64,000 nt of DNA from Simmondsia chinensis (Eukaryota; Streptophyta; Magnoliopsida; Caryophyllales; Simmondsiaceae). Numbering within the stretch: position 1 is the first letter of the stretch; each line of letters starts with the position of its first letter. The translations under genes were made by a program, and so were the position numbers. The notes under the pieces are model-generated. The model did no database searches. It was not told the origin of the DNA and saw nothing but the letters and a program-made list of their open reading frames with translations. This document shows positions 9,701 through 19,222 of this stretch, piece after piece. The stretch covers positions 6,813,355-6,877,354 of the forward strand of contig JAGTTD010000005.1 of the NCBI GenBank assembly GCA_018398585.1, read 5' to 3'.

Positions 9701-12700
9701 GAAAATTTCCAATGGTGAGGAAGAAGTGGGCAGCTATTGAAGAATTGGTCTGGTTTTCCATTAAATAAAAGGGAACTTAAGTTTCTTTGAAATAAATAAT
9801 AAGACATTTTAGGGAGTACATGACGGTTATTTCAACAACAACAAACCCAGTGCCTCGAGGGCTCCCGTAAATGCAGGGTCTGAGGGGGTGGGATGTATGC
9901 AGCCTTATCCCTTTAGGGCGGTACCCTAAAAAGAGGCTGTGTCCGAGGACCCCCAACCTGGAATGATGGTTATTTCAGATGAATAAAAAATAATGGTTTT
10001 CATGTCAGTAAGAAACATGGTGCCAACGGAATAGAAGATTAATGGAAGGAATTCACTGCATGCAGCTGTTCAGAAACTCATAATCAGACAATGAAGGTTT
10101 ACTTTTATACAACAATAGCAATGAACTTACGGATGCTCCTTCATATGATTGCATGTATTAACATAATTTGTGATAACATAATTTCTGCAGTGGGTGGTCA
10201 GCACATTGTAAATTTTGACTTACTTCCTCTCTTCTGGACAAGATAAGAAACAATCTCTCACTGTAGTTTTCGTTCTTTTCTGATAATATGTTTTTATCAC
10301 AAATAGGATGCTGGTCATAGAACTAAAGAAGGTTATACGAGGCTTTAAAAACAATAACAATTACTATGCAATCGCCAAATTCTAGTCTGAACACTGAAAT
10401 CTATGACAATAGATGTTGCAGCATGTAATGATAAAATATATGGTCATAGAGGATTACGTCCATTTACCTGTGCCATCCGCACCATTGAATCATACACAGC
10501 AGCATCCCCATGGGGATGAAATTTCCCCAAAACCTGCGAGAGCGCACAAGAAATTTAAGGTCTATAATGGTGGAGGACAGCGTACAGGTAGATATCAAAG
10601 AGAATTTCTTTTGAACTCACCTCACCAACAACTCTTGCACATTTTTTGAAAGGTTTTCTCGATGATAGGCCCAATTCATGCATTGCAAATCTGTTCCCCA
10701 GTGCATTGGAAAAAATAGTTACCACTTCGCCACGAGGCAAAAATAAAGTATTATTACATATACTCTTACATAAATTTTAGGACAATCTGCACGCCAATCA
10801 AAAATGTTAGGATAAAAACTTCCAACATTTTTTTAATTAAGGGTAAAGACAAACTACCCTAGGACCGTCCATGACGGATTGGGAATCCCAGGGCATCGGC
10901 TCTTATGAGAGATGAAAAGGCTTTGTCTGGCGGACGTTCCCATACTGAAAGGCCAGAGCCCCTAAGACCAAAATTTGCAAGCCAATCTGCTGGTTTATTT
11001 GCTTCCCGGAAACATTTATTGAACTTGACCTCGGTACATTGTTGGCTGATCATATGAATATCATCCACAATAGTTAGAATGTCTGCAGGAGTTGCATACG
11101 AAAAACCTTCCAACATATCTTCTACCACTCATTCCCTCTCCCTCAAACTTGCCCAGACAAATAAAATCAATTCTCCAATTATTTCCATTTTTTCTACCCA
11201 TTTCTTTACTTAGTATTATGTTACAACATCTTTCTTTGGATAGGTAAGCGAGGATGGGGAACTGAACCTCCAATCTCTAGTCCTAAAGTCTTAACCTTAA
11301 TAGTATTTTATAAGTAAAATAAAACCTCGTCGGCATCTTTCTAGGGGCACCCTTAAAGTCTGTAAACTTAACGCCTTAGCGTCTAAGCAATCAAGCAGAA
11401 GTAATAGACATCTCTCTCAAATTCAGAAAAGCAATGAATAATTGCTATTAATACATAAAATCTTATACACACCGAATGAGTTTTCATTCCAAAACCAATT
11501 AGTTTTGCACTAGATACTAGTCCTGGGTGAAAACTGCAATGCCAAGGTCATCATGCGCACTTTTCGGACTAAAATTGCACTAGATATCTAGTCTCGGGCT
11601 AACATTGTACTTCCTACATCGCCACCTCACAATGGACATGGCTTTCCACTAGAGTCTCCTCTAGTCCCAAAAGAACACCGCAATCCCGACGTCACCATTT
11701 GAGACTCAGGACTTGGGGTTTGAATAATTTCAGTGGCAAGTGACTTTGCAAAACATCACACACCAGCCTCCATGGGACTGTCAGGTGACGTCAGCCCCCA
11801 TAAGTCCGGCAATCCACGGGGCAAGATTAATAGCTCTGAGACCAATTATACACACCAAAGGAAGTTCCATCTAAAACAAATTGGCAATGGATGGTGTAGC
11901 TCCCTTGATATACATATTAGCATTTCACTTGTTCTGTAACGAACCTTGATGTTCGTTACGAGCTCTGATACCACTTTGTCACAAACCTAAGCCTGTGACT
12001 TGGATAATTTTAGAAAAGGGGAGAACGAGAGAGAGAGAAGTGGAGAAGTTAGAAGAGATTGAGGAGAGAATTAGAAGAGTTAGAGGAGGAGTTAGAAGTA
12101 GAGGGTTAGAGAAGGGAAGGAGGAGTAGAGAATTTAGAATTTTGAGAGAGGGAGGGGGACGGCTAGAAAGCAAGAGGGAAAGGAGAGACATAATTTGGGA
12201 TTTTCATTTTTAATTCATCCATGCCAAATTACAAGCTTACAAGCATATTTATAGAGTTTTCCCTAGGTACCTAATCCCTACTACTTAGCCCACATTTAAT
12301 TAATACAATTACATCATTACAATTTTAAATTAACCCTTTGCCTCCTAATCTACCCCAACCGGTTCCCTCCTAAATTCAAATTCAAAATTTAAACTAATTA
12401 GTTTTACAATATTGTTTATTACATAACCAATACAAAAATAATAAAAGCGAAAAATAGCCGTTTGGTTCCTTGGCTTGTGAGAGTCACGGCTAGGGTCGTG
12501 ACAAACCCTTCCCCTTGAAAACATCCTTGTCCTCAAGGATGAGTGGTACGCGCAACCTCCGTCCTTCGGTTCTCGTCCGCTTAGTATCTTCATTCTTATC
12601 CCTGGGTCATATGGATAAGTCTTGTCCTTAAGATCCTCTGGCCAAGGTTGAACTCGGTGGGTTGATCTCTTAGTGCCAATTCTGGTTCTAGGAAAATGTC

Positions 12701-17577: not shown

Positions 17578-19222
17578 TGATGCATCTAATAAAGGGGATA
17601 ATATTCTTTACATAGAAAAATAGTAGTTAGAGATATTATTAGTTTGTTAATGATTGTTAACTATAAATACTTGTATTAGTTGTGATATGAACAACAATGA
17701 TCAAACAAACACTTTTCTCATATCTCTCTCTCTTTTCTCATCCCCTTCTTCTAATTCTCTTTCTCATATCACTCTGACTCACAACCCTAACCCCTAATCT
17801 AGGTTACACCCTAAATTGGTGTAACATTTGGTATAAGAGCAGGTTATTTGCTGCGTTTTTTTATCCATGGCCGACGGTACGCGAAGTAGTTCAGATCTGG
17901 GGTGATTGAAAGCTCGGTTGGGTGACATCGAGAGTCGAATTGATGGTCGATTTCACGCAATTGATGAATGCTTTCAAGTAGTACAATCCGATATTGCTTC
18001 AATCAAGCAGGAGCAATGCCAAATGATGGAGATTATGCTGGATTTGCAGCGTCATTATCGACCTAGTGATGATGCTACCCTCTTAATCAAAGTCACGGAG
18101 GTCTTTTATCCTATAACCGAAGATGTTCTTCATCAGATATTCTCTCGTTTTGGTCACATTGCAAAACTTGAAGTCATCTCATCATCAATTCTTGAGGTTA
18201 AAGCACACATCACATGTTCTTCAAGACAAAATGCGATTTCTGCGTTTTTGTTCAATGGAAGAGCTGTATATGACCATTGCTATTACATGGATATTCAATT
18301 TCTCAATCTTGAGCCTCAAGTATATAATATGACACAACCTATTGGAGGGACACGTGATGTTTCATCTGATTGTTATAAGCACAATATAGTTGATCAAGTG
18401 AATGAGTTGGATGAAGTGGTTGTTAAGTCAATGGAGGATCAAGATTATGTTCAGCGGCTTAGTTTGCAATCAAAGGTGACCGAATTGGGATCTGGTGATG
18501 TTGGAGCTAGAAGTGAACAAGATACTGATGCTGCAACACATTTTAAACCATATCAAGAATTGCTAATACAAGCTCCCGCGAATCCTTTGAAGGCTGCAAC
18601 AATAGTACCCGAACTTCACACTACAAAAATTTCAGTGTTGCAACAAATTGAACGCGTTGATGACTTCCTCGATTTGAATGTTGAAGCACTCCTTCACAAT
18701 GGCCATACAATATTGCATCTCATCAGCATCAGCTCTGTCAACATGCATCAAATGATACTTGTGACAAGAAATGACGTTCCAGGTTCTGTAAGGGTTGCTT
18801 CTGCATTGGGATTCCGTATAAGCATATTAGTTGGTGGAAGATTGAATTCCAAGCTTGTGTTTCACATCTTCATCTTTGATCCAGTCAAAGAAACATTGTT
18901 CGAAATTTTCTCAAAGCCTCTACATTTCACTCGTTCTCATCCTTGAGGACAAGGATGCTTTGTGGGGAGGGTATTGATGCATGTAATAATGGGGATAATA
19001 TTCTTTACATAGAAAAATAATAGTTAGAACTATTATTAGTTAGTTAGAGATATCATTAGTTTGTTAATAATTGTTAGCTATAAATACTTATATTAGTTGT
19101 GATATGAACAACAATGATCAAACAAATACTTTTCTCAACCCCTTCTTCTAATTCTCTTTTTCATCTCACTCTAACTCACAACCCTAACCCTAATTTAGGT
19201 TACACCCTAAATTGGTGTAACA
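17578..19222 (+). mobile_element. Complete non-autonomous LTR retrotransposon carrying an RRM gene (element R2)
   Basis: LTRs of 249 bp (17578-17826) and 248 bp (18975-19222) begin TGATGCAT and end TGGTGTAACA. A perfect 5-bp duplication GTCTC flanks it. The primer site tttggtataagagcagg follows the 5' LTR, and a purine tract (ttgtggggaggg) precedes the 3' LTR. The 3' internal segment (catccttgaggacaaggatg) is shared with R1, but the LTRs are unrelated. So R2 is a different family of the same type. No pol domains are present. Confidence 0.92.
17867..18946 (+). pseudogene. R2 ORF: coiled coil plus PTB-type RRM, one early stop
   Basis: It starts ATG (MADGTRSSSDLG), then has an in-frame TGA at 17903-17905, then runs open for 347 codons. 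The first ~50 residues form a heptad-like helix (ARLGDIESRIDGRFHAIDE). Next is an RRM (LLIKVTEVFYPITEDVLHQI ... AVYDHCYYMDIQF) that aligns with the R1 and PTB RRM2 signatures. The C-terminal ~200 residues are not recognised. The MAdGTR start resembles the N-terminus of plant Ty3 gag proteins, which suggests a gag-RRM arrangement. The early stop could be bypassed by initiation further in, or the copy may be dead. Confidence 0.65.

Follow-up and report, generated by a model that had tools for sequence, protein, structure and literature searches.

Non-autonomous long terminal repeat (LTR) retrotransposons are usually seen as RNA-level parasites which code for nothing or for a gag remnant: LARD and TRIM are defined as non-coding, and TR-GAG keep gag as one open frame. 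Two LTR elements of Simmondsia chinensis, here called R1 and R2, are compared with them. Both are found in a window of 64,000 nucleotides (contig JAGTTD010000005.1 of assembly GCA_018398585.1, positions 6,813,355 to 6,877,354 of the forward strand; positions are counted from the first letter of this window unless a contig is named). R1 is localized at 11935-14184 on the minus strand and R2 at 17578-19222 on the plus strand. Both resemble LARD, TRIM and TR-GAG: they are short, LTR-bounded and presumably helper-dependent, with a primer site and a purine tract and without pol. They differ from LARD and TRIM in that (i) they code for a host-like RNA-recognition motif (RRM) and (ii) the ratio of non-synonymous to synonymous substitution (dN/dS) of this RRM is lower than 1 at depth. 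They differ from TR-GAG by the absence of a gag domain; recombinant relatives (loci L031-L033) do have gag and protease.

Host coding pieces are found in gene-transducing LTR elements such as Bs1 of maize, usually in sense orientation, the transduced genes being described at one or few copies (PMC7264820). Here, on the contrary, one domain is found through many families and is apparently under selection. Ty3/gypsy elements of the Retand, Grande and RIRE2 type have additional open reading frames which are kept in many copies and families, follow pol upstream of the 3' LTR in either orientation and, for the antisense ones, have no similar genes outside transposable elements (PMC7264820, PMC11963269). 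The open frame of R1 and R2 differs since it occupies the position of gag-pol and a host relative of it is known. The main text of these two papers contains «RRM» 0 times. No RRM-coding plant LTR element was found in the open-licence literature, as covered by titles, abstract starts and passages, no Repbase-type library being compared.

The element RRMs are similar to RRM2 of cellular PTB and plant PTBPH3, both in sequence and in predicted fold. PTB has four RRMs, while the elements that were read have one or two and are intronless. Long interspersed nuclear elements (LINEs) share with R1 and R2 a retroelement-encoded RRM, but are non-LTR elements with autonomous relatives. The ORF1 proteins of L1 and Jockey contain RRMs, and the plant BNR LINE likewise.

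R1 and R2 are not two oddities but members of a large radiation of non-autonomous LTR retrotransposons. The best explanation of the whole, to which a probability of about two in three is given, would be a single RRM radiation on a Ty3/gypsy (chromovirus-like) frame, gag-pol being replaced by the RRM gene. There is good support in this genome for the existence of these elements, for their breadth and for selection acting on the RRM, and the anatomy and evolution as read here are very probably right. A previous sequence-only reading of the window had seen two element families with a common RRM: the common RRM holds, the scope was too small.

The genome searched is that of the window (831 Mb, 35 contigs) and all results refer to this one genome. 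The four RRM searches, which overlap, gave (i) 179 matches from the best 150 of 2,286 first-look candidates for the R1 RRM plus part of its tail, (ii) 121 matches from the best 117 of 2,512 for R2, (iii) 150 matches from the best 150 of 1,703 for human PTB1 RRM2 and (iv) 150 matches from the best 150 of 2,240 for a plant PTB RRM2; these candidate totals are not copy numbers. The open frames among the matches listed range from less than 100 to more than 900 residues. Loci L001-L068 (some of which overlap) include 55 locus-strands with an LTR pair flanking the RRM. Among them 27 also have a perfect 5-bp duplication and TG..CA ends, a few possibly by chance since the search for duplication and ends spanned about 40 nt.

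The proteins are varied. R2-type proteins start with a helix at the N-terminus, which is followed by the RRM and then by either of two C-terminal modules. Another RRM is fused to one of these modules in L056 and L058; L057 and L059 resemble them but contain stops. Two tandem PTB-type RRMs, read from the translation, are found in L072 and L075, in frames of at least 608 residues. LTRs vary too: upon 16 loci closely related to R1, with about 87-99% identity in the internal region, 8 have R1-type LTRs (three of these loci belonging to one tandem array) and 8 have other LTRs. Since close relatives of R1 carry different LTRs, RRM cassette and LTR would have been swapped by recombination. The leader and 3' sequences outside the RRM are also common to the R1-like families. 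Tandem arrays of RRM elements are found at G000:C8:15839295-15844893, C8:11639544-11646677 and C10:11583143-11591278; in the first one, four R1-type LTRs alternate with three internal regions at a spacing of about 1.68 kb.

The domain of R1 and R2 is of the PTB RRM2 type, as the signature seen at first had indicated. Pfam RRM_8 matches R1 (E = 4.5e-18) and R2 (E = 6.1e-12), with one RRM in each, and PTB1 RRM2 is the closest relative of both in the PDB. The two RRMs are identical at 30 of 77 residues (39%). A profile of 42 stop-free element RRMs retrieves from the PDB PTB1 RRM2 (7.7e-15), hnRNP L RRM2 (3e-12) and, as next protein, CELF1 (7.3e-7). The predicted RRM fold has a mean predicted local distance difference test (pLDDT) of 86.7, and its best structural match is 1sjr, PTB1 RRM2; ranks 1 to 4 are PTB1 RRM2 and ranks 5 to 8 are hnRNP L or LL. 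The nearest solved structures include the PTB RRM2-Raver1 and hnRNP L RRM2-SETD2 complexes as well as 2adb, i.e., PTB RRM2 with CUCUCU according to its title. A motif IY..CC close to the domain end, also found in PTB, is almost invariant in the 42 element RRMs; its tyrosine is the one contacting Raver1 in PTB RRM2. A predicted-protein collection of 5.8 billion contains no relatives at E ≤ 0.001 for R2 (1,445 candidates) or R1 (243), which says little since this collection is taken to be plant-poor.

Selection on the RRM was estimated from 49 stop-free RRMs upon 79 RRM places, the 30 others being dropped for stops (17), short length (11) or identity (2). The 1,176 pairs comprise 822 in the bins, 305 without finite dS and 49 outside the bins. 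Median pairwise dN/dS is 0.82 at dS 0.02-0.1 (near copies), 0.43 at 0.1-0.3, 0.33 at both 0.3-0.6 and 0.6-1.0, 0.30 at 1.0-1.5 and 0.21 at 1.5-3. Net dN/dS between five groups lies in the range 0.15-0.41, the nested RRM L012 being counted in two groups and the nested L022 being placed in the R1-like group. Six of the ten bootstrap intervals (40 draws for each) have their upper end below 0.55 and one reaches 0.78. Moreover, in a set of stop-free RRMs, such frames persist among families whose RRMs are 35-52% identical to that of R1, and open frames are also numerous in the R2 search. The RRM appears to be maintained by selection in active lineages and to decay after insertion, dN/dS being about 0.8 in near copies and far lower than 1 between deeper pairs. 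The first idea of an RRM kept by the elements agrees with the fall of the median to 0.2-0.3 at depth; the role first suggested for it, in packaging, export or splicing control, is a putative one. The genome-wide dN/dS near 1 that would have spoken against it is not observed: near copies are at about 0.8, as decay after insertion predicts, and deeper pairs are not.

The host PTB gene is L079, on C4. Its RRM2 is split into at least four exon pieces (407-529, 771-833, 904-960 and 1089 onward, as given for L079). The element RRMs are uninterrupted across the stretch where host PTB has introns, which is the mark of a processed capture. With human PTB1 RRM2 as query the host gene did not stand out from the other 150 rows listed, and with the plant query it did. 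The tree comprises 26 hand-picked element RRMs (20 of the 49 stop-free RRMs plus 6 from L072-L078), host PTB, human PTB1 and human hnRNP LL. A branch supported at 100/100 separates the 26 element RRMs from host PTB; R2-type RRMs form their own group (100/99). It must be noticed that 13 of the 26 inner branches are weak and that several long rows are flagged. Since element RRMs form one branch and are intronless as opposed to the split host RRM2, the simplest reading would be a single capture of the RRM from a spliced host PTB transcript, followed by radiation.

The features of both elements are as follows.

11930..11934, no strand: R1 target site duplication TGTTC, left copy (LTR/flank comparison)
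14185..14189, no strand: R1 target site duplication TGTTC, right copy (LTR/flank comparison)
13616..14184, minus: R1 5' LTR, 569 bp, 562/569 identical to the other LTR
13693..13863, minus: R1 CU-rich tract of 171 nt or more on the element sense strand, within the 5' LTR (250-nt scan, the window of which bounds the length; coordinates computed from the distance to the primer site)
13600..13613, minus: R1 primer binding site TGGTATCAGAGCCA, read directly and also found in the 5' end of an RRM-free relative, L070
12345..13388, minus: R1 open frame, 347 residues from ATG, ending inside the 3' LTR
13140..13388, minus: R1 RRM domain, PTB RRM2 type (Pfam, PDB search, predicted fold)
12522..12541, minus: R1 hairpin CATCCTTG-AGGA-CAAGGATG, adjoining the purine tract (read directly; covariation)
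12504..12516, minus: R1 purine tract AAGGGGAAGGGTT, read directly
11935..12503, minus: R1 3' LTR, 569 bp (LTR comparison)
17573..17577, no strand: R2 target site duplication GTCTC, left copy (LTR/flank comparison)
19223..19227, no strand: R2 target site duplication GTCTC, right copy (LTR/flank comparison)
17578..17826, plus: R2 5' LTR (LTR comparison)
17712..17765, plus: R2 CU-rich tract of 54 nt within the 5' LTR (coordinates derived from how far it lies from the primer site)
17829..17843, plus: R2 primer binding site TGGTATAAGAGCAGG, imperfect, read directly
17906..18946, plus: R2 open frame, 346 residues, separated by the stop 17903-17905 from the ATG at 17867
17906..18061, plus: R2 N-terminal helical segment (modelled helix 2-49, putative coiled coil)
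18074..18301, plus: R2 RRM domain, PTB RRM2 type (Pfam, PDB search)
18938..18957, plus: R2 hairpin CATCCTTG-AGGA-CAAGGATG, read directly
18962..18974, plus: R2 purine tract GTGGGGAGGGTAT, read directly
18975..19222, plus: R2 3' LTR (LTR comparison)

R1 and R2 both have the marks of an LTR insertion, i.e., paired LTRs, TG..CA ends and a 5-bp target duplication, at the places first described. The LTRs of R1 differ at 7 sites; those of R2 (about 249 and 248 bp) have 11 mismatches and several indels. Both elements have a primer site and a purine tract adjoining the LTRs, the primer-site sequence presumably pairing with initiator tRNA-Met. Both elements had been called complete. This is right for the LTR anatomy; R2 however has an imperfect primer site and is not intact, with a stop 12 codons past the ATG at 17867 and a frame open only from 17906. 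Relatives of R2 with an open start exist in the genome. The R1 frame extends into its own LTR. The two LTR types do differ in length and sequence (569 bp vs. about 249/248 bp), and the sole R1-R2 DNA match at E<1e-3 is a 26-nt 3' segment (25/26), the other matches being short. The absence of gag-pol is borne out: in a Pfam search at E ≤ 1 neither R1 nor R2 matches any gag or pol family, thus neither is an autonomous element, and the better alignment to gag than to PTB that would have spoken against the RRM was not found. The same search finds no capsid or zinc-knuckle family in either; apart from RRM families, it gives for R2 one weak match to SMC_ScpB which does not reach the cut-off. The predicted N-terminal helix of R2 has pLDDT block means of 60-77 over residues 1-40. 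The whole-R2 model, built from six sequences, has a mean pLDDT of 35.5, and only this helix is usable; the C-terminal part was not used.

A DNA gyrase A gene on the minus strand (14496-14882 and about 10555-10776) appears to contain R1 in one of its introns, in sense orientation. The first exon is confirmed; the second one is a candidate read from its translation. At 26148-30864 (minus strand) a copia element with broken frames is found, the LTRs of which are about 140 bp long and 86% alike; this label comes from reading the frames. A pair of adjacent copies of about 450 bp, 86% alike, is found at 23191-24079.

The 3' segment common to R1 and R2, cttgaggacaagg, is the core of the hairpin CATCCTTG-AGGA-CAAGGATG. 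It had been regarded as shared by the RRM elements. The segment is indeed present in both, but it is neither specific to RRM elements nor a tie between R1 and R2: with freer outer positions, the hairpin pattern has 6,959 genome matches vs. 13 for the reversed control, and a 13-mer of the segment has 3,326 vs. 4. A link between R1 and R2 through this segment was thus dropped, the segment being a widespread hairpin of many LTR elements. Upon the 400 outer pair cells of the first 100 hairpins listed, 365 are Watson-Crick, as opposed to a mean of 221 and a maximum of 248 after shuffling, all 100 coming from one contig and copies of the same family not being independent. In 30 distinct forms the value is 94/120 (shuffled maximum 74). 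Each of the four outer pairs is found as 2-4 Watson-Crick types, the outer arms around CTTGAGGACAAG being CAT/ATG, CAC/GTG, CTT/AAG, AAT/ATT and others. The hairpin immediately precedes the purine tract, both in R1 and R2 and in many of the relatives that were read; in the RRM-free relative the pol stop codon is inside it. It was not found in the open-licence literature, as covered by titles and abstract starts.

A CU-rich run of 46-197 nt is found on the sense strand within the final 250 nt before the primer site (some lengths being bounded by the window of the scan). In 49 of 50 rows, i.e., all but L068, the CU score of the sense strand is above that of the antisense strand. These rows require a recognisable primer site; they contain R1 and R2 twice each and overlapping loci of one tandem array. 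The LTRs of the copia element of the window (26148-26283, 30725-30864), a single control on the LTR alone, have no CU tract. Since PTB RRM2 binds CUCUCU, binding of the element protein to the CU-rich leader is proposed by analogy, at somewhat less than even odds.

A helper was sought with the gag-protease of L031, which gave 74 scored matches among 21,593 candidates. Upon these 74, 27 are in frames of at least 1,500 residues, 21 of them without a stop inside the match. An RRM-free relative, read in separate stretches (L069, L071), has reverse transcriptase, RNase H and integrase, and a chromodomain match at E 2.4e-4. The idea of a helper carrying the RRM was dropped: gag-protease (96% like that of L031), reverse transcriptase, RNase H and integrase fill the frame. 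The LTR pair of this relative is aligned over 452 bp and is 99.6% identical. It has the same primer site as R1, with 83% identity over leader nt 3-96 and 94% over 35 nt at the 3' end. The identity of its LTR is 67% with that of R1 and 77-78% with that of L002. With R2, 23 nt of the 3' end and 30 nt of the LTR are alike. This chromovirus-like element is a likely helper of R1. In the best 40 of 1,092 candidates no R1-LTR pair with the spacing of a helper was found: pairs at least 95% identical flank RRM elements, at a spacing of about 1.68 kb, or in one case a gag-protease-RRM element of 3.26 kb, and several R1-type LTRs are unpaired. In the best 40 of 666, the R2 LTR gives eight pairs 1.4-1.7 kb apart and one doubtful case 5.9 kb apart, on C35.

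Gag-protease-RRM elements form a special case. Among the matches listed for the R1 query, the RRM match ends at residue 69-70 in 30 places, in frames of 362-938 residues. Three of them, L031-L033, read as Ty3-type gag, protease, shortened RRM and R1 tail (cut by a stop in L031), without reverse transcriptase. All three have the identical 102-bp (34-residue) RRM deletion, flanked by direct repeats AACAAAAGG and having also GT..AG ends; a template jump or a splice may be its origin. The ratio of non-synonymous to synonymous differences per site (pN/pS) in L031-L033 is 0.27 for gag-protease, 0.90 for the RRM remnant (small counts: 10 synonymous and 28 other changes, summed over three non-independent pairs) and 0.46 for the tail. 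For 13 RRM-only copies it is 0.38 for the RRM and 0.57 for the tail. The RRM thus looks constrained where whole and relaxed where broken.

The proposed mechanism would be as follows: (i) the RRM would have been captured once from a spliced host PTB mRNA; (ii) the RRM gene would have replaced gag-pol in a chromovirus-like non-autonomous element; (iii) gag-pol of a helper would act in trans; (iv) the element protein would bind the CU-rich leader of the element RNA, as PTB RRM2 binds CUCUCU; (v) this binding would favour export, stability, translation or packaging of that RNA. A more precise and rather doubtful form is that the RRM is the sole gene of a parasitic lineage and marks CU-rich leader RNA for export or packaging by the Gag of an unrelated helper; the factor and not the LTR would be the conserved heart, LTRs and C-terminal modules being exchanged.

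Several results weigh against the proposed radiation and mechanism. On the leader side, only 26 of the 50 CU rows exceed on their own the 99% level of shuffled LTR ends; the RRM-free element L070 also has a CU tract, so that this tract is not restricted to elements with an RRM and may have another use in promoter or leader. As to selection, dN/dS comes from the stop-free 49 of 79 places, near copies are at about 0.8, many copies contain stops, and three bootstrap intervals, all of small groups, reach at least 1.25, so that the exact level is uncertain. All results come from one genome, the tree holds one host PTB RRM2, and recombinants persist with a broken RRM. Concerning the helper, the chromodomain match of the RRM-free relative (21.4 bits) is below the Pfam cut-off of 25.1, the chromovirus descent of R2 is read from primer site and 3' end, and the autonomous partners with the same LTRs that had been expected were not found in the best 40 of 1,092 (R1) and of 666 (R2).

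Part of these results would also be expected if the RRM were a functionless captured host fragment, LTR, primer site and 3' end being sufficient for the helper. The median of 0.82 in near copies, the many copies with stops and the truncated RRM in 30 places among the matches listed agree with such a passenger, and gene-piece capture is described for plant LTR elements (PMC7264820). This is nevertheless improbable: dN/dS drops with depth to 0.2-0.3, RRM frames stay stop-free between families with RRMs 35-52% identical to that of R1, and the RRM stays while LTR and C-terminal modules change. A low dN/dS could reflect the evolution of the host if several PTB-like genes had been taken at different times. 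That R1 and R2 RRMs are only 39% identical and that the tree has one host PTB RRM2 and several flagged long branches is in favour of repeated capture, which is nonetheless given a small chance: the 26 element RRMs form one branch (100/100), and leader and 3' sequences outside the RRM are common to R1-like families.

Other roles for the protein can be considered. Coating the RNA like Gag, an RRM protein with a helical N-terminus might bring the element RNA into particles of the helper Gag. The pairing of N-terminal helix and RRM in R2-type proteins, the tandem RRMs of L072 and L075 and the joining of gag-protease to RRM in the recombinants all fit with such a substitute; it remains unlikely, as no capsid or zinc-knuckle family is found in R1 or R2 and as recombinants with a real gag have a broken, seemingly relaxed RRM, which fits an RRM that is dispensable once gag is there in cis, and proves nothing. 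The protein might instead be directed to the host and divert splicing, silencing or chromatin factors by a protein contact, as in PTB RRM2-Raver1 and hnRNP L RRM2-SETD2. These complexes are among the closest solved structures and IY..CC is near-invariant in the 42 element RRMs, yet this motif may be structural and the partner protein is hypothetical; little probability is given to this role.

A single RRM radiation on a chromovirus-like frame is thus retained as the preferred reading. It means that a host-derived RNA-binding gene is apparently kept by selection across many non-autonomous families, along a traceable route from host splicing factor to element gene. The covarying hairpin by the purine tract, with thousands of genome matches, is a second testable feature of plant LTR elements. 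Since the RRM gene appears selected across non-autonomous families, its retention would imply a preferential action of the protein on its own coding RNA, and elements with one gene would make cis-preference in retrotransposition directly testable.

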